Shown: positions 12,926-55,707, counted from the first letter of the stretch. The stretch is 64,000 bases of DNA from Elusimicrobia bacterium HGW-Elusimicrobia-1 (GCA_002841695.1 PHAN01000001.1:124001-188000); one strand, 5' to 3'. Translations and numbers: made by a program. The notes: generated by a model from the letters alone, not told the origin.

Positions 12926-14380
12926 ATGAGGTTTTCGCGGGTATTTCTGGCCAACCTGATATCGCACGAGACGAGTTTGTTCAGACAACGGGCGGTTCTT
13001 CGCGCGGGGATGGGCTATATAGCGCAGGCGCTGGAAGACGCCGGCGTCGCGTGCGCCGTCGACGATATGGCGCTCGGCTTCGGATTCGGGCGGTTGCGCC
13101 GCAAGATTCGGGATTTCGGACCGGACGCGATAGGCATAAGCATGTTTACCTATCGTTACGCCGAAGCGTATGCCGCCGTAGCGCGGCTGAAAAAAGAATT
13201 CGGCGTGCCGGTAATAGTGGGCGGCCCGCACGCGTCGGTATTTCGCGGTAAACTTCTTGAGGAATGCCCGTCCGCGGATTTTTGTATGGTGCGCGAGGGC
13301 GAGCGGAGCATTGTTAAACTTTGCCGCGGCGAGGATTTTTCCAAGATTGAGGGACTGATATACAGAGAAAATTCCGCGGTTCGCTCGGCGCCGCCGGCTG
13401 TTTTTATCGACGATCTCGACGCCCTGGCTTTTCCGAGATACCGCGCTTTTGAGCGGCAAAATTATCCCCTTGGCAATTCTCCCGTTTCACGCAGGGTAAT
13501 ACCGCTTGTGACGTCGCGCGGATGTCCGTACGAGTGCATATACTGTCCGGTCAACGCGGCCATCGGAAGAAAACTAAGGTGCCGCGGCGCCGACAGCGTG
13601 GTCAGTGAAATATCCCACTGGCGCGCCGAGGGTTACAGAAATTTTTCCGTCGTAGACGATAATTTTACGCTCATAAAAGACAGGGTCTATAAGATTTGCG
13701 AGGGAATAAAGCGCGCCGGTTTCAGCGATATTACGCTTGGCCTGCCCAATGGCATAAGGGCCGACAAGACCGACAGGCAAATGCTTGAAACGATGTATGA
13801 CGCGGGTTTTAGGTATGTCGGCATAGGCGTGGAGTCGGGGTGCGATGCAGTTTTGAAAGCGCTCAAAAAATCCGAACCGGTGGCGGTAATAGACGAGGCG
13901 ATAAAAAACGCAGTCGAGATCGGTTATTACGTGGATTTGTATTTTCTGGTAGGTTCTCCCGGAGAGACGGAGCGCGACGTTATGGCCTCGATAGCGCTGG
14001 CCGCCAAATATCCCGTGGACAAGGCGCATTATTTCAATCTTATACCCTATCCGGGCACGGAACTTTTTGATACGGTGGCTAAGGCGGGCCGGTTCCTTTA
14101 TCCGCCGGAATACTATCTTAACAACATCCATTCAAATATGAACGTGCCGGTTTTTGAGACGAAAGAATTTCCGGCCGCCGCCCGCGCCCGAATGCTTAAA
14201 TACGCCAAGCGCGCCGAGCGGCTGCGCAAGAAAGAATTGTATCGCCGCCGCCTGGCATCCAAAGGACTTCCCGCTTTTGCCGCTCGCGCGGCGTCGTCGG
14301 TATATTCATACGAGCCGGTGCGCGTGATATTCAACGATTCGGCGCTTCTTGCCGGTATCAAAGAAAGGATGATGAAATGA
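12926..14380 (+). CDS. B12-binding-domain radical SAM enzyme (1 of 6 radical SAM genes)
   Basis: The 484-residue protein has an N-terminal Rossmann-like cobalamin-binding-type domain (about 1-135, with IVGGPHASVF near its end) and then a radical SAM barrel with C200-x3-C204-x2-C207 (RGCPYECIYC). The C-terminal helical region is basic. The classical DxHxxG cobalamin motif is not visible, as in many class B enzymes. Family members methylate unreactive carbons or rearrange substrates. Among sugar genes a sugar C-methyltransferase is plausible but unproven. The start is ATG at 12926 with GAGAGGA just upstream; the gene ends in an ATGA overlap with the next. Confidence 0.85.
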   Translation: MRFSRVFLANLISHETSLFRQRAVLRAGMGYIAQALEDAGVACAVDDMALGFGFGRLRRKIRDFGPDAIGISMFTYRYAEAYAAVARLKKEFGVPVIVGGPHASVFRGKLLEECPSADFCMVREGERSIVKLCRGEDFSKIEGLIYRENSAVRSAPPAVFIDDLDALAFPRYRAFERQNYPLGNSPVSRRVIPLVTSRGCPYECIYCPVNAAIGRKLRCRGADSVVSEISHWRAEGYRNFSVVDDNFTLIKDRVYKICEGIKRAGFSDITLGLPNGIRADKTDRQMLETMYDAGFRYVGIGVESGCDAVLKALKKSEPVAVIDEAIKNAVEIGYYVDLYFLVGSPGETERDVMASIALAAKYPVDKAHYFNLIPYPGTELFDTVAKAGRFLYPPEYYLNNIHSNMNVPVFETKEFPAAARARMLKYAKRAERLRKKELYRRRLASKGLPAFAARAASSVYSYEPVRVIFNDSALLAGIKERMMK

Positions 14381-15405
14381 GCCGGCCTTTTTTCTCCGTG
14401 ATTATGACGGTCTATAACAGGGCCGGCCTTATGCGCTTCGCGCTCGAATCGCTTCGGCGGCAGACCTTCGGAGATTTTGAAGTATTTGTGGCCGACGACG
14501 GCTCGTCGGACAATCCCGCCGGGGTCTTTGAAAGTTTCCGGCGTCCCGGATGGAATTTCGTCAGGTTCGACGGGAATCACGGCTATCCGTATTGCAAAAA
14601 TCGTCTTCTTGACAAAGTGTCCGGCGATTATGTCACTTTTTTGGATTCCGACGATGTCTGGCTGCCTGAGCGTCTCGCGCGGTTCCGGGCTCACGCAATC
14701 GCCCTGCCCGACGACGGATTTATTTTTTCCGACTGTTTCCTCGAGCAGCACGGACAGGTGCTTGCCACAATGAGCGGCGGACGGCGCGATATTCCGCACG
14801 GACATCTTGGCGCGTGGGCCGCCGTGTCCAACCGTTGGCTGCCCTACGTGACCACAAATGTGGCGCTCAAGCGCGAGGCCGTAAAGGACGCGGGATACTA
14901 TAACGAAAAACTTGTACATCTGGCCGATACCGAATACTTCGCCCGCGTCGTAGGAAAATATCCGGTGGGATATATTCCGGAACCTTTGGCGGTATACAGG
15001 ATACACGAAATTTCTCTTACGTCAAACTGGGACTCTTGTCTGGCCGAAAATATACAGATAATCGATATGACCTCCCCGCCGCCCGACGTGGAGATACCTC
15101 TTAAAGATCACGTTCTTTACGCGCAGGCGGTCGTCTATTTTAAGAAAGGTATGGGAAGGGAGGCGCGGGAGTGCCTCGGTCAAATAAAAAATTCGCCGAT
15201 CCGCGCAAGAATTCTTTATCCTTTGACATTCGTGCCGGAAGTATTTTTGAAAATTCCGCGGTTTCTCTACAGGAAACTTCGCGTCGCCCGTCTTATGTTT
15301 ATGCCGGTCGCCAGAGAATTGAGGGACGCGGAAAATTGGCTTAACGATCTGGAGCGCGCGTCCACACCTCCGATGGAAACGGGCGCCGACAGGGGGCATT
15401 CATGA
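14377..15405 (+). CDS. GT2-family glycosyltransferase
   Basis: This 342-residue soluble GT-A enzyme starts with VIMTVYNRAGLMR and has VADDGSSD in the nucleotide-binding loop. LDSDDVW supplies the metal-binding DxD and a later region around LVHLADTEYFARV contributes the acceptor side. No transmembrane helix is obvious, although the C-terminal part is basic and could lie on the membrane. It would extend a lipid-linked oligosaccharide on the cytoplasmic face. It overlaps both neighbours by four bases. Donor and acceptor cannot be read from the sequence; the heptose kinase gene directly follows. Confidence 0.88.
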   Translation: MSRPFFSVIMTVYNRAGLMRFALESLRRQTFGDFEVFVADDGSSDNPAGVFESFRRPGWNFVRFDGNHGYPYCKNRLLDKVSGDYVTFLDSDDVWLPERLARFRAHAIALPDDGFIFSDCFLEQHGQVLATMSGGRRDIPHGHLGAWAAVSNRWLPYVTTNVALKREAVKDAGYYNEKLVHLADTEYFARVVGKYPVGYIPEPLAVYRIHEISLTSNWDSCLAENIQIIDMTSPPPDVEIPLKDHVLYAQAVVYFKKGMGREARECLGQIKNSPIRARILYPLTFVPEVFLKIPRFLYRKLRVARLMFMPVARELRDAENWLNDLERASTPPMETGADRGHS

Positions 15406-16391
15406 TTATCACAAAAACACCCCACAGAATTTCTTTTTTCGGCGGCGGCACGGATTATCCGGCGTGGTATCTTAAAAACGGCGGCAAAGTGCTCGGCGGG
15501 GCAATCAACAAGTATTGTTATCTTATAGTGCGCGAACTTCCGCCGTTTTTCGAGCACAAGCACAGAATCGTTTATTCAAAACTCGAAAACGCAAAAACCA
15601 TAGACGAGATAGCGCACCCGGCCGTCAGGGAAGTGCTCCGTTACAGAAACTATCAGTCGGGCATTTCGATACATCACGACAGCGATATTCCCGCGCGTTC
15701 CGGAATGGGGTCGAGTTCCGCTTTTACCGTCGGATTGCTTAAAGCCATGCACGCCATGGACGGAAATATGATATCCAGGGAAGACCTCTACGCCGAGGCC
15801 ATTCACGTGGAGCAGGACATAATCAAAGAGAACGTCGGTTCGCAGGATCAGGTTTTCGCGGCTTGCGGAGGACTTAACAAGATAGATTTTTTGTCCAACG
15901 GCGAAATAGTCGTTTCTCCGGTGATAATAGCTAAGGACGCCTTGCGGGAGTTTCAGAGCAAATTTATGCTGTTTTTCACGGGCATTGCCAGAAACGCGTC
16001 GGACATCGCCGAGGAGCAAATCAGAAACATAGACGCCAAGTCAAAGGACTTGCGCGAAATGTCATCTCTCGTGGATGAGGCCCACGGCGTTTTGACGTCG
16101 TCGCCGCTCGCGTTCGGTGATTTCGGACGGCTGCTCGACGAGACGTGGAAGATAAAACGGAATCTGTCGTCGAAAATAAGTAATTCGTTCATAGACGATA
16201 TTTACGCCAAAGCTCTCAAAAACGGCGCGGCGGGCGGAAAACTGCTCGGCGCCGGCGGCGGAGGATTCATGCTTTTTTACGCGGAGCCCCAAAACCACGG
16301 CCGCCTGAAGGCCGCGCTCGACGGGCTTCTTCACATACCTTTCGACTTCGATTTTACCGGAGCCGACATAATCTTCTATAAACAGGACTAA
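15402..16391 (+). CDS. hddA: GHMP kinase, HddA-like D-glycero-D-manno-heptose 7-phosphate kinase
   Basis: The 329-residue protein opens TPHRISFFGGGTDYPAWY, the characteristic HddA start. It carries the GHMP ATP-binding loop PARSGMGSSSA (97-107) and the C-terminal motif KLLGAGGGGFM. HddA phosphorylates D-glycero-D-manno-heptose 7-phosphate at C1 on the way to GDP-heptose. The matching guanylyltransferase is encoded far downstream at 41927, but no GmhA isomerase or GmhB phosphatase gene is in the window. L-fucokinase-type and other sugar kinases of the family are less likely given the N-terminal signature. Confidence 0.85.
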   Translation: MIITKTPHRISFFGGGTDYPAWYLKNGGKVLGGAINKYCYLIVRELPPFFEHKHRIVYSKLENAKTIDEIAHPAVREVLRYRNYQSGISIHHDSDIPARSGMGSSSAFTVGLLKAMHAMDGNMISREDLYAEAIHVEQDIIKENVGSQDQVFAACGGLNKIDFLSNGEIVVSPVIIAKDALREFQSKFMLFFTGIARNASDIAEEQIRNIDAKSKDLREMSSLVDEAHGVLTSSPLAFGDFGRLLDETWKIKRNLSSKISNSFIDDIYAKALKNGAAGGKLLGAGGGGFMLFYAEPQNHGRLKAALDGLLHIPFDFDFTGADIIFYKQD

Positions 16392-16396
16392 AAACC

Positions 16397-17335
16397 ATGA
16401 AACTCAACATTCTTGTGACGGGCGGCGCCGGATATATCGGTTCGATTCTGGTGCCCAAACTTCTTGCTTCGGGACATAAGGTCGCCGTGCTGGATAATTT
16501 TACGTATTTGCAGGGCGAGTCGCTGGCGGCCTGCTGTGCCGACGATAATTTTTCGGTGGCGCGTGGCGATGTCCGCGATATATCCGTCGTAAAGCCGCTA
16601 CTTAAAAAAGCCGACGTCGTAATTCCTCTGGCGGCTCTTGTCGGAGCCCCTCTGTGCGACCGCGACACGACCGCCGCCCGCACGGTGAATTTTGACGCGG
16701 TAAAACTTATCGCGGATTCGGTTTCCGCGTCGCAGCGCATAATTTATCCGACCACCAACAGCGGATACGGCATAGGCACCGACAAGTTCTGCACGGAAGA
16801 AACACCGCTTAATCCGGTTTCGCTCTACGGAGTCGTAAAGATGAATGCCGAAAAAGCGGTGTTGGCAAGGGAAAACTCCATAAGTTTCCGTCTGGCAACC
16901 GTGTTCGGAATGTCGCCGAGGATGCGGCTGGATCTTCTTGTCAACGATTTCGTCTACCGCGCGTACACCGACAGATTTGTGGTGGTATTTGAAGGACATT
17001 TCAGGCGCAACTACATACACATACGCGACGTCGCGGCGGCGTTCCTGCACGCCATTGAAAACTTTGAAAAAATGAAGGGGCAGCCATACAACGTCGGACT
17101 TTCGGAAGCGAACCTTTCAAAGTTGGAACTCTGCGCGAGCATAAAAAAACATCTGCCGGCTTTCGTGTATCTTGAATCGGCCGTCGGAGAAGACGTCGAC
17201 AAGCGCGATTACATAGTTTCCAACGAAAAAATAGAAAGGACGGGCTTTCGCCCGACGAACTCGCTCGACGACGGTATAAAAGAGCTTATCAGGGGCTACG
17301 CTATGCTCAGGAATACGAGGTACGGCAACGTATGA
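16397..17335 (+). CDS. NAD-dependent sugar epimerase/dehydratase (extended SDR)
   Basis: The 312-residue extended SDR has an intact NAD-binding motif TGGAGYIGS (8-16), a Ser/Thr region PTTNSGYG (118-125) and the catalytic pair Tyr144/Lys148 (YGVVK). GalE-like and RmlB-like enzymes share this layout. The full catalytic set separates it from the three degenerate SDR proteins further along. It probably epimerises or oxidises a nucleotide-activated sugar, perhaps the heptose made by its neighbours. The gene starts 5 bases after the heptose kinase stop and overlaps the next gene by four bases. Confidence 0.85.
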   Translation: MKLNILVTGGAGYIGSILVPKLLASGHKVAVLDNFTYLQGESLAACCADDNFSVARGDVRDISVVKPLLKKADVVIPLAALVGAPLCDRDTTAARTVNFDAVKLIADSVSASQRIIYPTTNSGYGIGTDKFCTEETPLNPVSLYGVVKMNAEKAVLARENSISFRLATVFGMSPRMRLDLLVNDFVYRAYTDRFVVVFEGHFRRNYIHIRDVAAAFLHAIENFEKMKGQPYNVGLSEANLSKLELCASIKKHLPAFVYLESAVGEDVDKRDYIVSNEKIERTGFRPTNSLDDGIKELIRGYAMLRNTRYGNV

Positions 17336-18333
17336 ACGCGAAACGCAAGTTCAAAAAAGTCCTTATCACCGGCGTCGGCGGTTCCGGCGGCAGTTACCTG
17401 GCCGATTACATAACGCAAAACCATCCGTCCGTCGAGGTTCACGGAATAGCCAGATGGCACAGCGCCCCTCCGTCGGTGAATGTCAATAAGTCCGTGTCGC
17501 CGGCCGTCGTGCACGAATGTGATCTGGCCGATTTCAGCTCGGTGTTCTCCACGTTATCGAGCGTCCGGCCCGATGCGATATTTCATCTTGCTTCGCACGC
17601 CAACGTCAGAGCGTCTTTCGTCACGCCCCTTTCCGTGCTCGACAACAACATAATGGGCACCGCCAATCTGCTTGAAGCCGCTCGGCTGGCCGGTATCGAC
17701 GCGGTCATACAGATATGCAGCACATCGGAAGTTTACGGGCAGGTCGCGCCTGAAAATGTCCCCATAAAAGAGAACTGTCCGATGAATCCGTCCAGCCCGT
17801 ACGCCGTTTCCAAAGTCGCGCAGGATTTGCTGGGCTTTACTTATTTCAGAAGTTACGGGATGAAGATAATCCGCACGCGCATGTTCGCCTACGTCAATCC
17901 CCGTCGGGCCGACTTGTTTGCCACGGCCTTCGCTCTTCAGGTGGCCGAAATCGAGGCAGGGCTCAGAGACGTTCTTTATCATGGAAATCTTGATTCCGTG
18001 CGCACTCTCATCGACGTAAGAGACGCCATGGAATCGTACTGGGTCGCCGCCGAGTCGTGCGATTTCGGCGAAGCGTATAACATCGGCGGAGACACCGTAA
18101 TTAAAGTCGGGGAATTTCTCGACCTTCTCAAAAAGGCCGCGAAAGTTCCCATAAAAACACAGGCCGATCCGTCGCTTTTCCGTCCGGCGGACGTTACTTT
18201 ACAGATACCTGACACCGGCAAGTTCGTCTCAAAAACCGGATGGCGGCCGAAGTGCTCGTTTGAGGATAGCGTAAAGTTTTTGCTCGCCGCCTGCCGCGAC
18301 GCCGTATCAAGAAAGCGTGGAGCGTCCAAATAA
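17332..18333 (+). CDS. GDP-mannose/GDP-heptose 4,6-dehydratase-like enzyme
   Basis: The 333-residue extended SDR resembles GMD. It has TGVGGSGGSYLADY (GMD has a GSYLAE-like stretch here), STSEVYG (130-136) giving the Thr-Ser-Glu part of the active site, and Tyr157/Lys161 in SPYAVSK. NPRRADLFAT matches the PRRGE(T/L)F region of GMD. The reaction would convert a GDP-sugar to its 4-keto-6-deoxy form. Because HddA and HddC-like genes share the locus, GDP-D-glycero-D-manno-heptose is a better guess than GDP-mannose, as in the DmhA-type enzymes of Campylobacter and Yersinia. Substrate choice is inference. Confidence 0.82.
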   Translation: MNAKRKFKKVLITGVGGSGGSYLADYITQNHPSVEVHGIARWHSAPPSVNVNKSVSPAVVHECDLADFSSVFSTLSSVRPDAIFHLASHANVRASFVTPLSVLDNNIMGTANLLEAARLAGIDAVIQICSTSEVYGQVAPENVPIKENCPMNPSSPYAVSKVAQDLLGFTYFRSYGMKIIRTRMFAYVNPRRADLFATAFALQVAEIEAGLRDVLYHGNLDSVRTLIDVRDAMESYWVAAESCDFGEAYNIGGDTVIKVGEFLDLLKKAAKVPIKTQADPSLFRPADVTLQIPDTGKFVSKTGWRPKCSFEDSVKFLLAACRDAVSRKRGASK

Positions 18334-19615: not shown

Positions 19616-21594
19616 AATACGCTTCAAAGTGGGATATATACGCGATTGTTCTGGTTGCCGCGACATTTGCCGTCGGTGTAGCGGGCGCGGGCTGGGGTTT
19701 GCCGTCGAGTCGCCGCGCGGAAATCACTTTGAGCGAAAATCTGAGGACACCGGCTTTTTACGCGCGTCTCGCGAAAGTCCGCGACGACATTTACGAAAAG
19801 GCCGGGCCGAATCTGCCCGCTTACGCCGGACGGCTGTTAGTGTCGGGCGGCGGCTACGACGCTTCCGTCAATTTGGCCACTCCTCCGGAAAAAGACGGCA
19901 CAATCCATCTGGTTTCAAAAGGGCGGGACATTCCGCTTGAGCTTTTGAGAGCGTACAATTCGTATCTTTTAAGAAGCGGCCATCCCGACGAGCAGGATAT
20001 GCTCACCGCCATATCCAAGATGAATCCCCGCAAGTTTAAGTTCGACCCGCATTTTTACCGCTACGGCGGAAGTTATCTCTATCCTTTGGCCGGATGGTTC
20101 GGCGTCGTAGGCGCCGCGGGTTACCTGAAAATCAATCCGGACATAACTTTCTATCACGCCTCGCCCGACGACATGGGACGTTTTTATCTGCTCGGACGAC
20201 TTTTTTCGCTGGTGTTCGGCGCGCTGCTCGTCTGGACGGCGTATCTTTTTGCGCGGGATTTTTACGGCCCCCGCGTCGGCTTCTTCGCGGCTTTGATTTT
20301 CGCTTCTTCTCCAATGCTGCTTGCGGAATCCAATACGATGAAGCCGCACATATACGCCGCCTTCTGGGCGATGTTGAGCGTTTACTGGATGCAAAAACTG
20401 CTGCGCTCCGACGATAAAAAGTATTTTTGGGCCGCAGGCGCCGCTCTTGGCATGGCCGCGGGAACAACGATAAATTCCTGGATATATCTGGCCTTTCTGC
20501 CTGCCGTAATTCTGGCGAAATATCACGCCCGCGGCGCCGCCTTCGCGGCGGCGGAAGCGGTCAAAAGATCCGCGCAGGTGTTGGCGGTATCCGCCGTGGT
20601 TTTTACGCTGACCAACCCGTACGTAATATTTTCGTTCGCGGATTATATGGATGAACTCAGATGGACGGCGAGTTTTCATCATTTCATTTTCAGGCCGTGG
20701 GTATTATTCACGGTGCCGTTCCGCGCGGCCTTTGGCGCTCCTCTGGCCGCGGCGGTTTTGGCGGCGCTCTTGTACGCGCTTGTTTATAAAAAAGAAACGG
20801 TCGACCGGCTGTTGTCGTATTTTTCCGCGGCATCACTTTTATTTTTGGCGGTTTCTTCGGGCGGACAGGGGGAAGCGTCGGCGTATATGCGTTATCATCT
20901 TCCGCTCCTGGCCGTGTTGTCCGCCGTTGCCGCCTCGGCTTTTTCCGACACACTGCGCATCCGCCCCGTCGTTGTCCGCGCCTCCGCTCTGGCGGTCATA
21001 GGCGCCGGTGTTTTGTGGGCGCAGTCGCTGAGGACTTTTCATGCGGTAAAATATATCAGAGCGTCGGGCGACGGCGCCTCCGCCCTGGCCGCCGGCCGAT
21101 GGATTAACACACACGTGCCCCCCGGCAGTTTGGTGGGGGTAATGAAGTACGCCCCTCACGTCGATTCCACTCCGCCGTTTCGTTTCGCCGACTACAAAAT
21201 AATCTCCGGGTTTGAAAGGGTCGAGAGTATAAAATCCGTCCGCGTGTTGCCGGAGTATTTTATTATGGGGAAGCCGCCGGATTTTCTTGAAATCAAGTGG
21301 AAGGATTTTTCCGAGTTTTACGACGAGACGGCCAAATTCGGCTTGAGCGGGAAAATCGGCCCGTTTGTTTTTGTCGACAAAATAACCCCCGCGGATTTTT
21401 CCGTGGCCGTATATAAATTGAGACCATTGAAAAAGTCGTCAAAATGTCACCCTGAGCGAAGCGAAGGGTCTCGCTTGTCGTCGGAAGGCGAGATTCTTCC
21501 CCCCGACAGGTCGGGGGTCAGAATGACAAATAGCGGGGTTTTTCAACGGTCTCAAATTAAGGGCAAAATCGTTTCGCGGCAAATAAATAAATGA
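19612..21594 (+). CDS. GT39/GT83-like membrane glycosyltransferase with repeat-derived C-terminus
   Basis: The 660-residue GT-C-like protein has about ten membrane helices. The first periplasmic loop contains GHPDEQDM, the Asp/Glu pair of ArnT/PMT-type enzymes that use polyprenyl-phosphate sugars. Residues after about KLR at the end are not native: they are encoded by a mobile palindromic repeat (21420-21553), recognisable by the run CHPERSEGSR. Removing the element and one copy of its AAATT duplication restores an ending VYKLRAKSFRGK with a TAA stop. Start ATG 19612 overlaps the methyltransferase stop; an upstream in-frame ATG at 19552 is unlikely. Confidence 0.85.
   Translation: MKYASKWDIYAIVLVAATFAVGVAGAGWGLPSSRRAEITLSENLRTPAFYARLAKVRDDIYEKAGPNLPAYAGRLLVSGGGYDASVNLATPPEKDGTIHLVSKGRDIPLELLRAYNSYLLRSGHPDEQDMLTAISKMNPRKFKFDPHFYRYGGSYLYPLAGWFGVVGAAGYLKINPDITFYHASPDDMGRFYLLGRLFSLVFGALLVWTAYLFARDFYGPRVGFFAALIFASSPMLLAESNTMKPHIYAAFWAMLSVYWMQKLLRSDDKKYFWAAGAALGMAAGTTINSWIYLAFLPAVILAKYHARGAAFAAAEAVKRSAQVLAVSAVVFTLTNPYVIFSFADYMDELRWTASFHHFIFRPWVLFTVPFRAAFGAPLAAAVLAALLYALVYKKETVDRLLSYFSAASLLFLAVSSGGQGEASAYMRYHLPLLAVLSAVAASAFSDTLRIRPVVVRASALAVIGAGVLWAQSLRTFHAVKYIRASGDGASALAAGRWINTHVPPGSLVGVMKYAPHVDSTPPFRFADYKIISGFERVESIKSVRVLPEYFIMGKPPDFLEIKWKDFSEFYDETAKFGLSGKIGPFVFVDKITPADFSVAVYKLRPLKKSSKCHPERSEGSRLSSEGEILPPDRSGVRMTNSGVFQRSQIKGKIVSRQINK
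21420..21553. repeat. MITE-like element 2 (CHPERSEGSR-type palindromic repeat) inside a gene end
   Basis: This 134-bp element has 15-base terminal inverted repeats GAGACCATTGAAAAA and TTTTTCAACGGTCTC, 14 of 15 complementary. It is flanked by a perfect 5-bp duplication AAATT (21415-21419 and 21554-21558). The interior is an imperfect palindrome (TGTCACCCTGA near the left, TCAGAATGACA near the right; GGGTCTCGC against GCGAGATTC). It has inserted into the 3' end of the membrane glycosyltransferase gene and changed its last residues and stop codon. Confidence 0.92.
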
Positions 21595-22469
21595 GAAAAC
21601 CCGACTACGGCATCATTCCCGACGCGGTTCGCGCGGCTTCCAAAGAACGCTCTCTGGCCATATTCAGGCGTATGTGCCTGAGCAGATATTTTGAAACCGG
21701 CATTATTGACGCGGTGGCGGATGAAACCGTTGATTACCCCGTGTATTTGTCAATGGGGCAGGAGTCGATACCGGCCGCGCTCGCCGAAGAAATCGGCGGA
21801 TTTATGATATTCGCGCAGCATCGCTGTCACGCCGCGTACCTTGCTTTCGGCGGAGATCCCGCCAAACTTCGCGACGAGCTTATGGGATTGCCCACGGGCA
21901 CCAGCGGAGGCCGCGCCGGTTCCAACTGCGTTCAGTGTCACTCCGGAGGATTGGAGATGTTCGGGCATCACGGGCTGATAGGCGAAAACGTTCCTCTGGC
22001 GGTGGGAGCGTCTCTGGGGAGTGGAAAACCGGCGGTTTGTTTTTTCGGCGACGGCGCCGCCGAAGAGGATTATGTTTTTGCCGCTATGGGATTTGCGGTA
22101 ACGCACAAATTGCCCGTGCTTTTCGTATGCGAGGACAACAATTTATCGATATTGACGGAAATCCGCGACCGGCGGTCGTGGAGTATTACCAAAGTGGCCG
22201 CCGCTCTTTATATGCCCGCCGTGGACATTGCCGACGACCCGTGGAGCGTGGCCGCCAAGGTCGCCGGGCTTAAAAAAAATCTGCCGGCCTTTATGAATAT
22301 CTATACCTGCCGCGCCCGATGGCACGTGGGCGCCGGAATAGACGGCCCGCCCGCGTGGGACAGATTCGCGCTTGTTAAAGAAGAGCTTTTGGCGCTGGGT
22401 CTGGGTAACGAAGCGGCCAAGATTGAGAACGAAGTCCGGGCGTTTATGACGGAATTATGGAAAAAATGA
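21591..22469 (+). CDS. Thiamine-diphosphate E1 alpha subunit-like protein
   Basis: The 292-residue protein belongs to the alpha subunit family of 2-oxo acid dehydrogenase E1. It binds thiamine diphosphate through GDG (153-155) and the downstream DNN (182-184), the classic GDG-x26-NN motif; the segment GDGAAEEDYVFAAMGFAV is typical. There are no E2 lipoyl acyltransferase or E3 genes nearby, so it is probably not part of a dehydrogenase complex. Related orphan E1 pairs attach two-carbon units to keto sugars in antibiotic pathways (AviB1/AviB2 type). It pairs with the following beta gene. Confidence 0.85.
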   Translation: MRKPDYGIIPDAVRAASKERSLAIFRRMCLSRYFETGIIDAVADETVDYPVYLSMGQESIPAALAEEIGGFMIFAQHRCHAAYLAFGGDPAKLRDELMGLPTGTSGGRAGSNCVQCHSGGLEMFGHHGLIGENVPLAVGASLGSGKPAVCFFGDGAAEEDYVFAAMGFAVTHKLPVLFVCEDNNLSILTEIRDRRSWSITKVAAALYMPAVDIADDPWSVAAKVAGLKKNLPAFMNIYTCRARWHVGAGIDGPPAWDRFALVKEELLALGLGNEAAKIENEVRAFMTELWKK

Positions 22470-23437: not shown

Positions 23438-23947
23438 ATGAAAAAAGCCGTGATAATCACAGCGCAGAACTTTCAGGACGAGGAATTCATATACCCCTAT
23501 TATCGTCTGCGGGAGGCGGGTTTTTCCGTCGATGTGGCGATAAAGGGAAAAGAAACCGTCAAAGGCAAATACGGACTGCCCTGCAAGCCCACGGTCGACA
23601 CAAAAGACCTGCGCGAGTCCGACTACGATCTTGTGGTAATACCCGGCGGGCACGAAGCTCCCGACAGGGTAAGACAGGTCAGGGAAGTCCTGGACTTTGT
23701 GCGCGCTATGAACGCCAAGGGCAAAGTGATTTCCACCATTTGCCACGGCCCGTGGGTTTTAATTTCGGCGGGTGTGGTTAAAGGAAAAAAAATATCGGCA
23801 TACATCGGAATCAAGGACGATGTCGTCAACGCCGGCGCCGAATATGTCGACGCTCCTGTTGTCGTCGACGGCAATATCGTTTCGTCTCCGCACTATCAAT
23901 ATAACGGCGACTGGATGCGCGAGACGCTGAAAAAATTCGGACTATGA
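23438..23947 (+). CDS. DJ-1/PfpI-family protein
   Basis: This 169-residue single-domain protein has the DJ-1/PfpI nucleophile elbow STICHGPW with Cys102 and His103, an acidic residue near the N-terminus in FQDEEF (Glu15/Glu16), and IPGGHEAPD before the elbow. Members include glyoxalase III, class I amidotransferase-like proteins, proteases and hydratases; sequence alone does not say which. Placed between an E1-like pair and a sugar SDR-cupin fusion, it more likely works on a carbonyl sugar intermediate than as a protease. A GGAGG ribosome site precedes the ATG. The 81-base gap upstream shows nothing else. Confidence 0.85.
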   Translation: MKKAVIITAQNFQDEEFIYPYYRLREAGFSVDVAIKGKETVKGKYGLPCKPTVDTKDLRESDYDLVVIPGGHEAPDRVRQVREVLDFVRAMNAKGKVISTICHGPWVLISAGVVKGKKISAYIGIKDDVVNAGAEYVDAPVVVDGNIVSSPHYQYNGDWMRETLKKFGL

Positions 23948-25680
23948 ACAAGAGCGACAAAATATACGTGGCCGGACACAACGGCCTTGTCGGTTCGGCG
24001 GTATGCCGCCGTCTGGCGGCCGCCGGCTTCACCGATGTCATCACGCGTTCCCGCGCGGAACTCGACCTGTGCGACCAGAACCACGTCCGCGCGTTTTTCG
24101 ACAGAGAACGGCCGAAGTACGTATTTTTGGCCGCGGCCAAGGTCGGGGGTGTTTACGCAAACGACACCTATCGCGCCGATTTCATTTACGAAAATCTGAT
24201 GATACAAAGCAACGTAATTCATCAGGCGTTCGTGCACGAAACGTCAAAACTCCTGTTTTTCAGCTCCGCGGATATGTATCCCAAAAACTGCCCCCAGCCG
24301 GCCAAAGAGGAGTATCTTTTCGGCGGGCCGCTTGAACCGACCTGCGAGCCGTTCGCGGTGGCGAAACTCGCCGGCGCCCAAATGTGCGAGTCGTACAACC
24401 GTCAATACGGAACGGATTTTACGGTGGCGATCGCCCCCAATGTCTATGGACCGCATCAACGCTACGACTCTCTTAACGCGCAGGTGGTTCCCTCTCTGTT
24501 AAAGAAATTCTACGAGGCGAAAGCGTCCTCCTCGGACGAAGTTGTCATTTGGGGCGCCGGCGGCGCTCAGAGAGATTTTCTGTATTCCGACGATCTGGCC
24601 GACGCGGCGATATTTATTATGAAGGAAAGCGGCGCTCCTGATTTTTTTAATGTAGGCACGGGAAGCGGTTATACCATTGCCCAAGTGGCCGAGGCGATAA
24701 AAAAAGCCGTGGGATACGGCGGCAGAATTGTTTTTGACAAAACCAAGCCGGAAGGGGCGGTCAGGAAACTTTTGGATGTATCAAAGATTACGGATCTCGG
24801 ATGGAAAGCCGGCGCTTCGCTGGAAGCCGGCCTTGCGGCGACTTACGATTCTTTCGTCGGGGAAATGAGCAGAAAAGAAGCCCGCGTCAGCATAGTGTGC
24901 AATATTTCCCTTAACCGAAAAGATTCGCAGGCGCTTAAAAAAATCCAAAAGGGGCGCGGGATTCCGTCGTCGGAAGCCGTTGAACAGGATTTCAGGAACA
25001 AGATAGTCATAAAGCCGTGGGGCCACGAATTTCTGGTTTTTGAAAACGAGGAGACATCGGTATGGTTTCTGCATCTTAAAAAAGGGCATTCCACGTCGAT
25101 GCACTGCCATCCCGGCAAAAACACATCGCTGATAATTCTTTCCGGTAAAGCCATGAGCAGCACTTTTGAGTCGAGAAATTACCTCAAAGGCGGCGACGCC
25201 ATAATAATAGAGAAAGGCGTATTCCACTTTACCAAAGTTCTTTCGGACGACGGATTGTGTATGTTTGAGATAGAATCTCCGCCGCTCAAGACCGACCTTG
25301 TGCGTCTTGAAGACCGCTACGGACGGGCCGAATTGGGATACGAGAGCGAGGCCGCTTCGTCGCCGGAGCGTCTTAGGGAATACGGTTATTTTCATTTTGA
25401 AGATACGCCGCCGCAAAAACGTTTCGCCCATGCCGACGACAGATTTACCGCCGAGTTTGAAGTATTTGCCGATGCGAAAGATTTTCAGGACCATTTCAAG
25501 ATAGACGACCTCGGCTGTCTCTACACTTCCTGCCGCGGCAATATTGTCGGCGCCGACGGCAAGACGCTTTTGGCGTCCGGCGGAACCCAGAAGGCCGACG
25601 TTCTTTTTAACGCGGGAAATATGAGCGTTACGGGGCGCACTGTAATTCTTAAGACCTCCACACGGGACAGACAACTGTGA
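23944..25680 (+). CDS. GDP-L-fucose synthase-like SDR fused to a cupin domain
   Basis: The protein has 578 residues. Residues 1-305 align closely with GDP-fucose synthase (GHNGLVGSAV, SSADMYPK, CESYNRQYG, APNVYGPH). The catalytic Tyr is Phe137 (FAVAK, Lys141 kept), the epimerisation Cys is Ala109 and the epimerisation His is Gln180. A linker (about 305-350) leads to a mannose-6-phosphate-isomerase-like cupin (about 352-475) with IKPWGHE and the metal-binding MHCH, and then a further 100-residue beta-rich tail. The SDR half is unlikely to act as a normal epimerase-reductase; the cupin could isomerise or epimerise. It overlaps both neighbours by four bases. Confidence 0.85.
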   Translation: MNKSDKIYVAGHNGLVGSAVCRRLAAAGFTDVITRSRAELDLCDQNHVRAFFDRERPKYVFLAAAKVGGVYANDTYRADFIYENLMIQSNVIHQAFVHETSKLLFFSSADMYPKNCPQPAKEEYLFGGPLEPTCEPFAVAKLAGAQMCESYNRQYGTDFTVAIAPNVYGPHQRYDSLNAQVVPSLLKKFYEAKASSSDEVVIWGAGGAQRDFLYSDDLADAAIFIMKESGAPDFFNVGTGSGYTIAQVAEAIKKAVGYGGRIVFDKTKPEGAVRKLLDVSKITDLGWKAGASLEAGLAATYDSFVGEMSRKEARVSIVCNISLNRKDSQALKKIQKGRGIPSSEAVEQDFRNKIVIKPWGHEFLVFENEETSVWFLHLKKGHSTSMHCHPGKNTSLIILSGKAMSSTFESRNYLKGGDAIIIEKGVFHFTKVLSDDGLCMFEIESPPLKTDLVRLEDRYGRAELGYESEAASSPERLREYGYFHFEDTPPQKRFAHADDRFTAEFEVFADAKDFQDHFKIDDLGCLYTSCRGNIVGADGKTLLASGGTQKADVLFNAGNMSVTGRTVILKTSTRDRQL

Positions 25681-27245: not shown

Positions 27246-27250
27246 AAGTT

Positions 27251-27402: not shown

Positions 27403-27407
27403 AAGTT

Positions 27408-31972: not shown

Positions 31973-32007
31973 ACGACAGACGGCTATCCGCCGGTAAATA
32001 TAAATTA

Positions 32008-34790: not shown

Positions 34791-34792
34791 TT

Positions 34793-37599: not shown

Positions 37600-37616
37600 A
37601 CGCGCCGCCGGATATA

Positions 37617-41930: not shown

Positions 41931-42649
41931 CGGACATAAAGGATATGAGCGCTCTTGTCTTATGCGGCGGTTTGGGAACGCGCCTCAGAGAGGTCGTCAG
42001 CGATGTGCCCAAACCTATGGCTCCCGTCGGAGGAATGCCGTTTTTGGATTTTGTTCTGGACTATCTGGGCGGCTACGGCGTAAAAAAAATAGCGCTGGCC
42101 AGCGGATATAAATCGGAAGTGGTAAGAGATTACTACCGGAAAAATCCGCGGGGTTTCAAAATAGAGTTTTCGGAAGAAATCGAACCGCTCGGCACGGCGG
42201 GGGCCGTCGCGGCCGCCAAAGACAAGATAAAGAGCGACCCGTTTTTCGTCTTAAACGGCGATTCGCTCTGCCGCGCGGATCTTGCCGCGATGCTGGATTT
42301 TCATAACGGCAAACGCGCCGCGGCGACAATAGCGGTGGCTCCGCCGCCCGACGGCGCGGCCGATTACGGCGCCGTGACTCTCGACGCAGACGACCGGGTA
42401 ATCTCTTTTAATGAAAAATCCGCCGCAGGGCTTTCCCCCGGAGTAAACGCGGGCATCTATATTTTCGGCGGAGAAATATTCGGGCTGATTCCGTCCGGGC
42501 GCTCGTCGTCGCTTGAAAAAGAGATTTTTCCCGCGATGAAAAATATTTACGGATTCCGCACGGATGCCGTTCTTGCGGATATAGGGACCAAAGAAAGATT
42601 TCTGGCGGCGCGGAAGAATCTGGCGCCGCGCTATAAACAGGAGAAATGA
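41927..42649 (+). CDS. hddC: HddC-like D-glycero-D-manno-heptose 1-phosphate guanylyltransferase
   Basis: This 240-residue nucleotidyltransferase has the signature LCGGLGTRLREVVSDVPKPMAPV (residues 11-34 region), then metal-binding NGDSLCRADL and a late NAGIYIF. The N-terminal sequence is closest to HddC, which makes GDP-heptose from heptose 1-phosphate and GTP; mannose 1-phosphate guanylyltransferases are the main alternative. It complements the HddA-like kinase at 15402. The ATG at 41927 forms the ATGA overlap; an upstream in-frame ATG at 41849 lies inside the previous gene. Confidence 0.85.
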   Translation: MTDIKDMSALVLCGGLGTRLREVVSDVPKPMAPVGGMPFLDFVLDYLGGYGVKKIALASGYKSEVVRDYYRKNPRGFKIEFSEEIEPLGTAGAVAAAKDKIKSDPFFVLNGDSLCRADLAAMLDFHNGKRAAATIAVAPPPDGAADYGAVTLDADDRVISFNEKSAAGLSPGVNAGIYIFGGEIFGLIPSGRSSSLEKEIFPAMKNIYGFRTDAVLADIGTKERFLAARKNLAPRYKQEK

Positions 42650-43839: not shown

Positions 43840-45421
43840 CTCATCGGCCACAAACCGTAAAATAGCCAAGGCATCGGCCATTCTTATGGCCGCGAGCATC
43901 GCGGGACACGCCCTAAGCTTGGGCAAAGAAATGCTTGTCGCCAATTACTTCGGCATAACGCGCGCAATGGACGCCTATTACGCCGCGATGTCGGTGGTCA
44001 ACTGGATAACTCCGATATTTGCGTCGCCCTTCGTTCTGATATTCACTCCGATATTCGCCAAATATAAAACTCTCGACAAAAAAGAGGCCGACATGCTGGC
44101 GGCCACGCTTATAAACGGCGTGCTTGCGGCGCTTGCCGTCGCGCTGATAGCGGTTTTTATTTTTTCCGATCATATAATGCGCTACGCTTTCAGCGGTTTC
44201 GATCCGTCGGCGCGTGTTCTTGCCTCAGGCCTGCTCAGGATACTCTGCGTTTCCACGCTATTCGGAGTTCTTGCCACCATCTGCACGGCCATACTCAACG
44301 TCAACGAACATTTTTTCTGGCCGTCGGTTTCCACGATGTTCGTGTCGCTCTCGACTATGGCTATGTTGTTTCTGTTTGCCAATACCAAAGGCGCTTACGT
44401 TTTTGCCTGGGGCATGCTCCTCGGACTTGTTCTGCAGTTTTTGTTTTTGGCGCCGCTGCTGCATCGTTACGGATACAGGCACAGTTTTGTGGCGGTCGTG
44501 GACCACGTTGAGATACGCAATGCCCTGAAAAGTTACGCCACGCTCAGCGCCATGGCCGTAATCGCCGGCGCCGGCGGGGTCGTCAACAGGGTTATGGCGG
44601 CCTGGCTTCCCACGGGGAGCATTTCCGCGCTCGGTTACGCCGACAAATTGGTTCAAGTTCCTCTGGTTATTTTTTCGGGCTCCGTAGTGACGGCGATATA
44701 TCCGTATTTTTCGGGACAGATTGCCGGCAATAAAATGGAGGATATGAAACACACTCTTGCCATAAGTATAAGGATGGGGGGATTCATCTTCGCGCCCATA
44801 ACGGCGCTTATGATGACGCTTTCGGCGCCGGTGGTGGCTCTGCTTTTTCAGCGCGGGGCATTCGACGCTTCGGCTACGGCGCTCACTTCGACCGTGCTGA
44901 TTTTCTGCGCGTTTCAACTTTTTCCTGTTTACTCTCTGGCGGTCATGCAGCGGTTGGTTTTCGCGTTTCAGGACGTGGCCAGTGTGGCAAGAATTACGGC
45001 GGTCTCAATAGCGCTTACCATTGCGCTGAATTACATATTTATGAAGACGATAAATCCGCCGGCCGCGGGCATAGCGTTGTCCGGCGCGGTCGTCTGCGTG
45101 ATTTCGGCGTTTCTTTATTCCGTCGTGCTGAAGAAGAGAATGAAAAATCTGCACGGTATTCTGATATTAAAATCGCTGGCCGCAATATCTCTGGCCGCCG
45201 CGGTTGCAGGCGCGGCCACGCGTTTGGCTTTCGGGTATCTTTCGACGATACAATATCAGGCCGTCGCCCCCGTCTTTGCCAAATCTTTTGTTATAGCGGC
45301 GTCCGCGTCCGTTGGCGTCGCGGTTTACGCGGTCGCTGCGGTAATCTTTAAATTTGAAGAGGCGCAAAAGGTCATAGCGGCCGTAAAATCCAAAATGTCG
45401 CGGCGAAAAGCGGGAATATAA
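43826..45421 (+). CDS. MurJ/Wzx-like lipid-linked oligosaccharide flippase
   Basis: The 531-residue MATE/MOP-fold membrane protein has about 14 helices. Its MurJ-like landmarks are GKEMLVANYFGITRAMDAYYAA in helix 1-2, GFDPSARVLA before helix 4, and ALGYADKLVQVPL around helix 7. It would flip the polyprenyl-linked glycan to the periplasmic side (Wzx role); an involvement in peptidoglycan precursor flipping is less likely in this context. The start is TTG at 43826, supported by GGAG at 43815-43818 seven bases before it; the overlapping ATG at 43836 is out of frame. A 14-base overlap with the upstream gene. Confidence 0.85.
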   Translation: MEQNDSSATNRKIAKASAILMAASIAGHALSLGKEMLVANYFGITRAMDAYYAAMSVVNWITPIFASPFVLIFTPIFAKYKTLDKKEADMLAATLINGVLAALAVALIAVFIFSDHIMRYAFSGFDPSARVLASGLLRILCVSTLFGVLATICTAILNVNEHFFWPSVSTMFVSLSTMAMLFLFANTKGAYVFAWGMLLGLVLQFLFLAPLLHRYGYRHSFVAVVDHVEIRNALKSYATLSAMAVIAGAGGVVNRVMAAWLPTGSISALGYADKLVQVPLVIFSGSVVTAIYPYFSGQIAGNKMEDMKHTLAISIRMGGFIFAPITALMMTLSAPVVALLFQRGAFDASATALTSTVLIFCAFQLFPVYSLAVMQRLVFAFQDVASVARITAVSIALTIALNYIFMKTINPPAAGIALSGAVVCVISAFLYSVVLKKRMKNLHGILILKSLAAISLAAAVAGAATRLAFGYLSTIQYQAVAPVFAKSFVIAASASVGVAVYAVAAVIFKFEEAQKVIAAVKSKMSRRKAGI

Positions 45422-50181: not shown

Positions 50182-50183
50182 AG

Positions 50184-53126: not shown

Positions 53127-54325
53127 AAGCATCCAGAATGAAGTTTATCGACATATACGCCGGTCTTCCGCTGTGCGCTATTCTTTTCGCGCTGCACAAG
53201 ACGGTATCCGTTTTCCGTCGGAAACCCTCCTCCCGCGAAATAAAAAATATGCTTTTTATAAAGTTTTGGGGAATGGGCACTATCATTCTGGCCTCGCCGT
53301 CCGTAAAGGCCATCCGCGCGAAGTATCCGGACGCCCGCGCGACTTTTATGACGTTCACCCGCAATGAGGCCGTCTGCCGGCTTCTGGGTCTTGCCGACGA
53401 CTACGTTACCGTCGACGTCAAACGCGGTTTCGTCCGATTCATCGTAGATACGGCGGCAGCCATTGTCCGCCTTCGCGCGAAGGGAATAGATATGGCCGTC
53501 GACCTGGAATTTTTTACCAGATTCTCGGCGATAGTCGGTTATCTGAGCGGCGCGCGGAGCCGCGTCGGCTTTAAGTCGTGGGAGGCGTGGCGCGGGGATC
53601 TTCTTACGGCCTCCGCCCCCTTTAACCGCTACTGGCACGTCTGGAAAAATTTCGGTTCGCTGGCCGTCGCCGCCGGCGCGGATTTCGACCCGTCCGCCCT
53701 GCCGCGCATCGCCGACGGCGAACTCGCCCCGTCCGTCAAATCCTTCGACGTGAAATTTAACCGCCTTGCGGCCGGCGGCGAAGACATCGTTTGCGTCAAT
53801 CCAAACTCCGCCGTGGAGTTCGACTGGCCCCGCCGATGGCCCGACGCCAATTACGCGGAGCTTGCCGTCGCTCTGGCAGACAAATACCGCTGTCGCGTCG
53901 TAATAATCGGCGGCGCCGACGACGTTGCCTGCGCCGAAGCCATAGAACGAGCCGCCGCGCGCGGCGACCGTGTTGTCAATCTCGCGGGAAAAACGTCGGT
54001 CGGGGATTTGGCCGCCCTGCTTAAAAAAAGCCGGTTGCTCGTCACAAACGATTCCGGACCCATGCATCTTGCAGCCGCTCTCGGAACTACCGTAGCCGCA
54101 TTTTTCGGCGCCAGCACTCCCGCGCTTACGCGGCCCCTCGGTGAAGGCCATCTCGTATTTTTCAAGAATCTTGAATGCAGCCCCTGTATAAATCTGGTGA
54201 CTAACGATAAAATAAGGTGCTATCACCGCGCTCCCAAATGTCTCGACGGCATTACCGTCGGGGAAGTTTTGGGAGCCATCGAGGCAAGCGGTGTATTGCG
54301 CAGGCGCAGCGCGGTCGTTTTATGA
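53123..54325 (+). CDS. GT9-family glycosyltransferase (heptosyltransferase-like)
   Basis: The 400-residue GT-B enzyme has the ADP-heptose:LPS transferase pattern: KFWGMGTIILASPSVKAIRAKYP at the start of the Rossmann half, then VDLEFFTRFSAI, IIGGADD and the nucleotide-sugar site TNDSGPMHLAAALGT. GT9 enzymes usually move heptose, which fits a locus with heptose kinase and guanylyltransferase genes, though GT9 normally uses ADP-L-glycero-heptose rather than GDP-heptose. The N-terminal 40 residues contain a hydrophobic stretch that may bind the membrane. ATG 53123 overlaps the carbamoyltransferase stop. Confidence 0.88.
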   Translation: MKASRMKFIDIYAGLPLCAILFALHKTVSVFRRKPSSREIKNMLFIKFWGMGTIILASPSVKAIRAKYPDARATFMTFTRNEAVCRLLGLADDYVTVDVKRGFVRFIVDTAAAIVRLRAKGIDMAVDLEFFTRFSAIVGYLSGARSRVGFKSWEAWRGDLLTASAPFNRYWHVWKNFGSLAVAAGADFDPSALPRIADGELAPSVKSFDVKFNRLAAGGEDIVCVNPNSAVEFDWPRRWPDANYAELAVALADKYRCRVVIIGGADDVACAEAIERAAARGDRVVNLAGKTSVGDLAALLKKSRLLVTNDSGPMHLAAALGTTVAAFFGASTPALTRPLGEGHLVFFKNLECSPCINLVTNDKIRCYHRAPKCLDGITVGEVLGAIEASGVLRRRSAVVL

Positions 54326-55707
54326 GAAAAAAAGTACTTCTGCTGAACCCTCCCGGAAAAAAAATTTATATAAGGGACTACTACTGCTCCAAAACGTCCC
54401 AGGCCGACTACATTAATCATCCCGTGGATTTCGTAGTTTTAAGCGGCATACTTTCGCGGGACAACGACGTGTCGCTCATAGACGCCATTGTCGACCGCCT
54501 GTCGCCGGAAGAATGTCTCCGTCGCATTGTCGGGCTGTCTCCCGACGCCGTGATATTTTTGACGGGCGGAGTTTCGTGGCCCGAAGACAGAGAATTTCTG
54601 GCGTCCGCGCGGCGCGCCGTCCCGTCGGCGGAGTTTATAGGCCTGGGCGATATTTTCCGCGAGGATGCCGCGAAATATCTCGCGGAAGCGCCGTTTCTTT
54701 CGGCGGTAATTCTTGATTTCACGTCGGACGACGCGGCGCGCTATCTGGCGGGCGAGCGCTCGGGCCCGGCGAATATGGTTTTGGCCGGCGCCCCGCCGAC
54801 CGTCGCGCCGATGCGGCGGGGGACATCGGAGTTTGAAATACCCGTTCCGAGGCACGAACTCTTCATCTTCAAAAAATACCGCTATCCGTTTGTCCGCGCG
54901 TCCCGCTTCGCCACGGTTTTAAGCGAGTACGGCTGTCCCTTCGACTGCAGTTTCTGCGTTATGGGGACGTTGGGACACAAAATCAGAAAAGTATCGAACG
55001 TCGTCGAAGAACTCGAATATATTCTGCGTCTCGGCGTCAGAGAAATATTTTTCGCCACTCAGACCTTCGGCGCGCGACGTTCTTACGCCGTAGATTTGTG
55101 CCGCGCGATTAAGCCGCTTAACATCGGCTGGACCACGTTTTCCCGCGTGGACACCGTCGACGAAGAAGTGCTGTCCCTTATGAAAGAGGCGGGCTGTCAT
55201 ACCATAATATTCGGCATAGAATCCGGAAGCGGGGAACTGCTTAAACGCTACCGCAAGGGTTATGACAAGGAACGCATAAGAAAAATCATAAACCTGTGCG
55301 CCGACAAGGGAATCGAAACGGTGGGCACCTTCATACTCGGTCTTCCGGAGGAAACGCGCGATACGATGAGGGAAACGCTGGATTTTATCGCGGAACTTCC
55401 GCTGGATTACGCGTCTTTCAATGTGGCGGTGCCGCGCGCCGGCACGGATTTAAGAAAAGAGGCGCGCGCCGCGGGACTTGCTGTTGCCGATTTATCGTCG
55501 ACAATGGATCAGTCCGGCTCCGAAATAGCCATGAACACGAAACATCTTTCGCGCGAAGAAATACAGGATTTCAGACGAAAGGCGGTCAGGACTTTTTATC
55601 TGAGGCCGTCTTATCTTTTGAGACGTCTGGCCTCTATCCGCTCTCAGGGGCATTTTTTAGGCCAGCTCAGGCAGTTCGCCGCCATGCTCGGAAAAACATG
55701 GGGATGA
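54322..55707 (+). CDS. Radical SAM enzyme with degenerate B12-type domain (6 of 6)
   Basis: This 461-residue protein opens VLLLNPPGKKIYIRDYYCSK, as in B12-binding radical SAM proteins. The N-terminal domain is weakly conserved: the usual GGPH segment reads FIGLGDIFREDA. The cluster motif is C205-x3-C209-x2-C212 (EYGCPFDCSFC), followed by FGIESGSGELLKRYRKGY and FILGLPEETRDTM, which complete the barrel. This pattern is common in anaerobe and secondary-metabolism enzymes. ATG 54322 gives the ATGA overlap; an upstream in-frame ATG at 54217 lies inside the GT9 gene. Confidence 0.85.
   Translation: MRKKVLLLNPPGKKIYIRDYYCSKTSQADYINHPVDFVVLSGILSRDNDVSLIDAIVDRLSPEECLRRIVGLSPDAVIFLTGGVSWPEDREFLASARRAVPSAEFIGLGDIFREDAAKYLAEAPFLSAVILDFTSDDAARYLAGERSGPANMVLAGAPPTVAPMRRGTSEFEIPVPRHELFIFKKYRYPFVRASRFATVLSEYGCPFDCSFCVMGTLGHKIRKVSNVVEELEYILRLGVREIFFATQTFGARRSYAVDLCRAIKPLNIGWTTFSRVDTVDEEVLSLMKEAGCHTIIFGIESGSGELLKRYRKGYDKERIRKIINLCADKGIETVGTFILGLPEETRDTMRETLDFIAELPLDYASFNVAVPRAGTDLRKEARAAGLAVADLSSTMDQSGSEIAMNTKHLSREEIQDFRRKAVRTFYLRPSYLLRRLASIRSQGHFLGQLRQFAAMLGKTWG

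Follow-up and report, generated by a model that had tools for sequence, protein, structure and literature searches.

A 64,000-nucleotide stretch of Elusimicrobia bacterium HGW-Elusimicrobia-1 (GCA_002841695.1 PHAN01000001.1:124001-188000), hereafter the window, carries six genes for radical S-adenosylmethionine (SAM) enzymes, four of which almost certainly belong to a single conserved gene cassette. Our preferred reading, to which we give a probability of about 60%, is that the region is a surface-glycan cluster centred on this cassette (about 15400-36736 plus 38930-43839), which has spread horizontally and would make one unusual nucleotide sugar. The initial annotation had placed all six enzymes in one glycan cluster and proposed that they serve an undescribed, highly modified sugar or lipid carrier. 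The glycan cluster holds for the region, but the conserved unit takes in only four of the six enzymes, and the proposal that they serve such a sugar stands for those four genes and not for RS1 (12926) and RS6 (54322). The product is best read as a highly modified sugar with C-methylation; nothing was found that points to a modified lipid carrier. Conservation of the neighbourhood, chosen beforehand as a test able to refute the proposal, turned out to be strong across phyla for the four consecutive enzymes.

A conserved cassette with four radical SAM enzymes

All six proteins (12926, 30647, 32008, 33411, 34793 and 54322) pass the Pfam Radical_SAM (PF04055) cut-off, and their CxxxCxxC motifs lie at the cysteines originally predicted (C200, C191, C225, C66, C201 and C205, numbered from the start codons of the initial annotation). 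Four of the genes are consecutive at 30647-36736. A B12-type N-terminal domain had been assigned to five of the proteins; PF02310 scores above its cut-off in four (12926, 30647, 32008 and 34793), and there is no fifth, the 54322 protein giving no PF02310 match even at E<=5. The genome (G000, 97% complete) has 31 radical SAM genes in 2.06 Mb. Six in 42.8 kb, against 0.65 expected, with a simulated probability of 0.009 for such a cluster anywhere in the genome, indicates a density above chance. Every gene annotated in the region is on the + strand. The genes of the cassette and those lying within it are as follows.

15402..16391, + strand: HddA-like GHMP sugar 1-kinase; best Protein Data Bank relatives 4n3o and 3k85 (D-glycero-D-manno-heptose phosphate kinases)
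16397..17335, + strand: SDR1, a short-chain dehydrogenase/reductase (SDR) of the nucleotide-sugar epimerase type; TTNSGYG...YGxxK in the motif alignment
17332..18333, + strand: Gmd-like nucleoside diphosphate (NDP)-sugar 4,6-dehydratase; STSEVYG...YAVSK, catalytic motif conserved; top match TIGR01472 gmd at 141.5 bits against a cut-off of 415
21591..22469, + strand: E1a, thiamine enzyme E1 alpha-type subunit; PF00676
22457..23356, + strand: E1b, thiamine enzyme E1 beta-type subunit; PF02779
23438..23947, + strand: PfpI/DJ-1 family protein; TIGR01382 at 172 bits, over cut-off; identity up to 84% in 8 loci
23944..25680, + strand: Fcl-like SDR with a fused cupin region; Phe at the position of the catalytic Tyr
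25677..27245, + strand: UxaA-type sugar-acid dehydratase; PF20629 (275 bits) and PF04295; also in the G012, G024, G006 and Geomonas clusters
27408..28088, + strand: HAD sugar phosphatase, matching beta-phosphoglucomutase-like families; start picked within the open reading frame 27249-28088
28085..29062, + strand: SDR2, NDP-sugar SDR with a non-canonical active site; YFGxxWxxR replaces YxxxK
29062..30018, + strand: SDR3, NDP-sugar SDR, the commonest partner of RS2; YFGGAWxK replaces YxxxK
30003..30653, + strand: NUDIX hydrolase; PF00293
30647..31972, + strand: RS2, B12-type radical SAM enzyme, cassette core; PF04055 and PF02310
32008..33414, + strand: RS3, B12-type radical SAM enzyme; PF04055 and PF02310; directly after RS2 in most of its 8 loci
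33411..34790, + strand: HemN-like two-SAM radical enzyme (predicted), lacking the coproporphyrinogen-oxidase motifs; 10 loci by tblastn, 12 comparison loci by protein search
34793..36736, + strand: predicted KedN5/TokK-like cobalamin-dependent radical SAM C-methylase; family profile, fold match to TokK, W74
36718..37599, + strand: short-chain dehydrogenase; PF00106; adjoins the KedN5-like gene in G012 and G027
37596..38852, + strand: glycosyltransferase (Glyco_trans_1_2); PF13524
38930..39751, + strand: split transketolase, N-terminal half; PF00456
39748..40716, + strand: split transketolase, C-terminal half; PF02779 and PF02780
41930..42649, + strand: HddC/ManC-like sugar nucleotidyltransferase
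42646..43839, + strand: His-type 3-dehydratase dependent on pyridoxal or pyridoxamine phosphate (E1/ColD/RfbH type, by alignment to 3bcx); active-site His and Fe-S cysteines retained

We compared this arrangement with Elusimicrobiota of another family and with 21 public contigs found using RS2; counts are over 29 comparison loci. A gene was taken as present where its match extended over 45% of the protein at 40% identity or more. Because many of the loci are short, these figures are minimum values, and the one for RS2 is partly by construction since RS2 was the bait. Gene calls were poor in the ThermoplB locus and in the high-GC loci L059, L067 and L068, whose neighbourhoods were used for RS2 only (plus SDR3 in ThermoplB). 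RS2 has an orthologue in 23 loci, SDR3 in 18, HddA and E1a in 14 each, E1b and the KedN5-like enzyme in 13 each, SDR1 in 12, Gmd in 11, the HemN-like enzyme in 10, RS3, SDR2 and PfpI in 8 each, NUDIX in 4 and the 37596 glycosyltransferase in 3. RS1 was found in one locus, and RS6 and nearly all PMT and glycosyltransferase genes in none; both RS1 and RS6, lacking conserved linkage, were rejected as members of the unit to which they had been assigned.

The order HddA, SDR1, Gmd, E1a, E1b, PfpI, Fcl-cupin, UxaA, HAD, SDR2, SDR3, NUDIX, RS2, RS3, HemN-like is largely retained in G012, G024, G027 and G006, mostly at 45-84% identity, and in G012 and G027 the KedN5-like gene, its adjoining dehydrogenase and a glycosyltransferase also come after the HemN-like gene. 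Across phyla, cassette orthologues are about 40-84% identical and stand beside the kinase, nucleotide-sugar SDRs, two-subunit thiamine enzyme and dehydratase. Reduced cassettes are present in Omnitrophota, Geomonas limicola, a Geobacteraceae bin, Magnetospirillum UT-4 and Planctomycetota, and also in Vogelbacteria, Yanofskybacteria and other Parcubacteria, Pacearchaeota, Nanoarchaeota and a Thermoplasmata archaeon. RS2, RS3 and the HemN-like gene directly follow one another in Elusimicrobiota, a deltaproteobacterial bin, Planctomycetota and a Thermoplasmata archaeon. In Geomonas limicola, the KedN5-like (residues 4-640) and HemN-like (residues 659-1102) parts share one 1117-codon stop-free frame. 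An AGGAGG resembling a Shine-Dalgarno sequence and an ATG persist at the junction and could still allow the HemN-like part to be translated separately. Across a 199-genome sample of the phylum, strong KedN5-like matches occur in six genomes and strong HemN-like matches in six, with three in common; two of these three belong to one family and are not independent. Searches of the open-access literature for radical SAM enzymes in connection with O-antigen, branched sugars or polysaccharides found no description of this cassette.

Predicted functions of the radical SAM enzymes

The 34793 enzyme is very probably a TokK/CysS-type (class B) cobalamin-dependent C-methylase. Its family profile scores 407 bits against TokK and 280 bits against CysS, and the predicted structure (mean predicted local distance difference test score, pLDDT, 86) matches TokK (7kdx) over the whole chain, with a Foldseek template modelling (TM) score of 0.85 across 689 columns. 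The protein combines an N-terminal cobalamin-binding domain (PF02310), a CxxxCxxC radical SAM domain (PF04055) and a TokK-type C-terminal domain. W74, invariant in 9 sequences, aligns with Trp76 of TokK; this residue, Trp75 in CysS, sits under the cobalt on the lower axial face of cobalamin (PMC12846815). With the TokK homology and fold, the lower-axial Trp makes C-methylation by methylcobalamin the expected reaction. The three-domain fold, the cysteine motif and the lower-axial Trp are common to the 34793 protein and the TokK, CysS and KedN5 methylases, but the protein scores only 232.5 bits against the NCBIfam KedN5 subfamily (NF033712, cut-off 700) and differs in sitting within nucleotide-sugar cassettes of bacteria and archaea.

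RS2 is 52-70% identical to 21 relatives from bacteria and archaea, the nearest named ones being Elusimicrobia bacteria. Its model (pLDDT 88) matches MgmA, AprD4, TsrM, CysS and TokK, though modestly, with TM scores between 0.60 and 0.70. In an alignment judged by eye and not computed, L72, which does not vary among 20 sequences, lies at the place of W74 in the KedN5-like protein; Mmp10 has Leu at this lower-axial place (PMC12846815). Resolution of the RS2 tree is poor, with good support for 3 of 17 inner branches, and the Elusimicrobiota do not group together in it, a pattern that fits transfer without proving it. RS3 weakly resembles several families of B12 radical SAM enzymes. In loci without RS3, another family of B12-type radical SAM proteins, about 600 amino acids long, recurs next to RS2 or in its vicinity (L069:8124-9992, L061:5532-7364 and L063:7404-9188).

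Hopanoids and tRNA had been named as substrates that would separate these enzymes from a glycan. None of the six proteins reaches the HpnJ or HpnR cut-off (the best is 172.3 against 577.6 for HpnJ) or those of the MiaB/RimO families. Labels as hopanoid enzyme, tRNA methylthiotransferase, BchE or P-methyltransferase were accordingly rejected, all scores being under the family cut-offs.

Corrinoid supply appears plausible, given an apparent B12 uptake operon elsewhere in the genome (L091:361-5173 on G000:C2) with BtuF-, BtuC-, BtuD- and TonB-receptor-like genes, these names being read from the sequences. A cobalamin-riboswitch match just under the Rfam cut-off precedes the operon. MetH and a PduO-type adenosyltransferase were sought in this genome as signs of B12 use, and neither was found.

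A HemN-like enzyme in a sugar cassette

Haem was the third alternative substrate. The 33411 protein aligns end to end with E. coli HemN and scores 325.6 bits in the TIGR00538 hemN model, 0.7 bits above the cut-off of 324.95, which would favour an ordinary HemN of haem synthesis. Coproporphyrinogen dehydrogenase activity, however, is reported to need the motifs GPRYTSYPTA and RNFQGYTT (PMC10320005), and both are absent from all 13 cassette HemN-like proteins compared (the G069 sequence, in the wrong frame, was left out), being replaced by YxEYPHKSxW and NSLG-type sequences. E. coli HemN has both motifs, and so does the control G171, a more distant Elusimicrobiota homologue, apart from a single substitution in the first. 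Nor is there a TIGR01464 (hemE) match in this genome; none scores over the cut-off in five relatives, and 6 of 14 controls do. On the lost motifs and the absent hemE we rejected a haem role, which we consider hardly credible.

The residues of HemN that serve the two SAM molecules are retained: Y56, E145 and D209 correspond to Y60, E154 and D218 in the 33411 protein. The E145 and D209 equivalents are kept in all cassette HemN-like members, and that of Y56 in 11 of 13 (Phe in two planctomycete proteins). Judged from its sequence, the 33411 enzyme is a member of a distinct HemN-like two-SAM subfamily in a sugar-pathway context. It resembles HemN and the class C two-SAM enzymes NocN and NosN in its full-length HemN architecture, CX3CX2CXC motif and putative two-SAM residues, and differs from them in lacking both coproporphyrinogen-oxidase motifs and a haem pathway partner, and in belonging to a sugar cassette. 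Annotation by score alone would label it a haem enzyme in an organism without hemE, and even a curated hemN cut-off can therefore mislead.

Candidate enzymes of sugar building and branching

E1a and E1b are adjacent, separate alpha and beta E1 subunits. Lipoamide E2 (PF00198) is absent from this genome and from four of five relatives. We therefore rejected a 2-oxoacid dehydrogenase complex and regard the thiamine pair as a candidate stand-alone carboligase. Two-subunit E1-type enzymes branch sugars in the avilamycin, paulomycin and kibdelomycin clusters (PMC12247030, PMC4753412). These use pyruvate for C2 branches according to the literature, so a larger donor here would be a departure. The pathways to eurekanate in avilamycin and everninomicin (AviB1/B2) and to paulomycose (Pau11/12, Pau7) share with the cassette a two-subunit E1-type enzyme without E2 and NDP-sugar dehydratases. 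They also share an aldo-keto reductase, the class of Pau7, which reduces such a branch; one adjoins or lies near the KedN5-like gene in five loci. The cassette differs from these pathways in three or four added radical SAM enzymes, genes for possibly larger 2-oxo acids, and a spread over bacteria and archaea. The lipopolysaccharide pathways to yersiniose A and caryophyllose (YerE) offer a second likeness, with a 4,6-dehydratase, a His-type 3-dehydratase, thiamine-dependent carboligation onto a 4-ketone and a reduction, as we propose here. YerE, however, is a single-chain flavoprotein dependent on thiamine pyrophosphate, whereas the cassette has two E1-type chains and radical SAM enzymes in addition.

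UxaA-type dehydratases yield 2-keto-3-deoxy acids. In other phyla, a LeuA-like synthase (476 bits, under its cut-off) lies directly before E1a, accompanied by an aminotransferase in some. The two genes stand directly before E1a/E1b in Omnitrophota, Vogelbacteria and one planctomycete, and a LeuA-like gene is also ahead of the pair in a second planctomycete and in Magnetospirillum. Either a UxaA-type or a LeuA-like enzyme, the latter perhaps with the aminotransferase, would supply 2-oxo acids, which suggests that such an acid is the branch donor. LeuA-like 2-isopropylmalate synthase and aminotransferase genes ahead of E1a/E1b in other phyla lie at L057:1298-3618, L074:4051-6370, L075:613-1767 and L072:1764-4080.

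An active-site His sets 3-dehydratases apart from aminotransferases. In the 42646 enzyme, a His aligns with that of 3bcx (Lys in the 3bb8 chain) and is found in all seven sequences; the RfbH/E1-type Fe-S cysteines CxCxxC...C are present in the window protein and in five of the seven overall. By these residues the enzyme is a His-type 3-dehydratase of the E1/ColD/RfbH type. An HddA-like kinase and an HddC/ManC-like nucleotidyltransferase recall the GDP-D-glycero-D-manno-heptose pathway, but the cassette proteins fall far under the equivalog cut-offs (146.7 against 600 for HddA). The genome also has a gmhA-like gene, which is compatible with a heptose start.

Proposed pathway and alternatives

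The cassette product is probably a GDP-linked, 6-deoxy, 3-deoxy, C-branched and C-methylated sugar, made by a logic analogous to that of yersiniose and eurekanate with radical chemistry added. The kinase (15402) and nucleotidyltransferase (41930) would activate a heptose-like sugar to a GDP-sugar, which the Gmd-like enzyme would convert to its 4-keto-6-deoxy form and from which the His-type enzyme (42646) would take off O-3. E1a/E1b would then decarboxylate a 2-oxo acid and link the remaining acyl part to the ketone, the acid coming from the UxaA-type dehydratase here and from the LeuA-like synthase and aminotransferase in other versions, and SDRs would afterwards epimerise or reduce the product. 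The KedN5/TokK-like enzyme may methylate the sugar or its branch one or more times at an unactivated carbon. RS2 and RS3, both of the B12 type, and the HemN-like two-SAM enzyme may modify it further by C-methylation, C1 transfer or redox steps. The sugar would then reach a surface glycan through glycosyltransferases and a MurJ-type flippase.

Several observations weigh against this reading. Module content varies by locus, with UxaA, the 3-dehydratase, RS3 and the HemN-like gene each missing from many. The pairwise distances of RS2 correlate only moderately with those of other families (0.25-0.57, except 0.83 for RS3), which points to reshuffling. Most of the sugar enzymes fall far under their NCBIfam equivalog cut-offs; the GDP, the heptose start and the putative C-4 branch point follow from family resemblance. 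Active sites are altered as well: SDR2 and SDR3 (28085-30018) lack the canonical YxxxK and carry a nearly invariant YFGxxWx(K/R)-type sequence, in 17 of 18 SDR3 sequences, and Phe replaces the catalytic Tyr of the Fcl-like domain (23944-25680) in four of five sequences, the window's included. Textbook reactions may thus not apply. MetH, moreover, is missing from the genome, and we infer both the product and its reactions.

It is possible, if rather unlikely, that the radical SAM enzymes act instead on an acyl or amino-acid-like side chain, built by the thiamine pair with UxaA, or by LeuA-like synthase and aminotransferase, and methylated by the KedN5-like enzyme and RS2 before attachment to the sugar. 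The position of the LeuA-like and aminotransferase genes directly before E1a/E1b in several phyla agrees with such a chain, and the nearest enzymes of solved structure, TokK and CysS, have side chains as their methylation targets. The genes that most regularly adjoin RS2 and the KedN5-like gene, however, are nucleotide-sugar SDRs and the sugar kinase, and KedN5-like orthologues in G165, G115 and G176 occur with kinase, Gmd and SDRs with neither RS2 nor a LeuA-like gene seen nearby. A small-molecule antibiotic or signal bearing the sugar, in place of a surface polysaccharide, seems improbable to us. That KedN5, TokK, CysS, AviB1/B2 and NocN are all natural-product enzymes speaks for it. Yet neither a polyketide nor a peptide synthetase was seen in the window, and around the cassette lie several glycosyltransferases, a MurJ-type flippase and membrane transferases of the PMT-like kind. 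It also occurs in genomes of DPANN archaea and the candidate phyla radiation, where surface glycans would be likelier.

Less credible still is the view that six unrelated radical SAM enzymes are chance neighbours in one glycan island, each serving another sugar or process. This holds for RS1 and RS6, by their near absence from the comparison loci, but the other four recur with the same sugar genes across phyla, and two of them are joined in frame in Geomonas.

Branched sugars and C-methylated sugars occur in certain lipopolysaccharides and antibiotics, whereas TokK-type cobalamin radical SAM enzymes are known from small natural products. If the cassette makes a glycan sugar, TokK-type chemistry would also shape cell surfaces, across bacteria and archaea. 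It is tempting to speculate further, with due reserve, that this is a widely exchanged new pathway in which higher-carbon surface sugars would arise by thiamine-dependent chain joining and successive radical C-methylations, including a HemN-derived two-SAM class acting on nucleotide sugars with a TokK-like methylase. Two of the carriers are in culture, Geomonas limicola Red745 and Magnetospirillum UT-4, which opens the question to direct experiment.

Flanking genes and further observations

Three genes outside the cassette bear on its surroundings.

12926..14380, + strand: RS1, B12-type radical SAM enzyme, accessory; PF04055 and PF02310; orthologue only in G012, beside the same GT2 gene there
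43826..45421, + strand: MurJ-superfamily flippase; TIGR01695 at 230.1 bits against a cut-off of 235.55
54322..55707, + strand: RS6, AprD4/HpnJ-like radical SAM enzyme without a recognisable B12 domain; PF04055

The closest solved relative of RS6 is the radical SAM diol dehydratase AprD4 (114 bits), which is also among the top fold matches of RS2; RS6 nevertheless remains well below the AprD4 family cut-off (131.9 against 500). The flippase at 43826-45421 is of the MurJ superfamily and not of the Wzx type. Such a flippase adjoins the cassette in G012, G015 and G024 and lies near the KedN5-like gene in G115.

Outside the window, the genome has another dense group of radical SAM genes, five within 21 kb (G000:C3:235727-256679). 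RS1 and RS3 share a 34-nucleotide stretch that is 91% identical (13402-13435 and 32538-32571) and codes for a common FIDDLDALAFP segment. Short inverted-repeat-like elements (GGATTCCCGCTTTCGCGGGAATGAC; 'CACCCTGAGCGAAGCGAAGGG' type) at 27280-27380 and 21440-21600 run into the ends of the adjoining reading frames.

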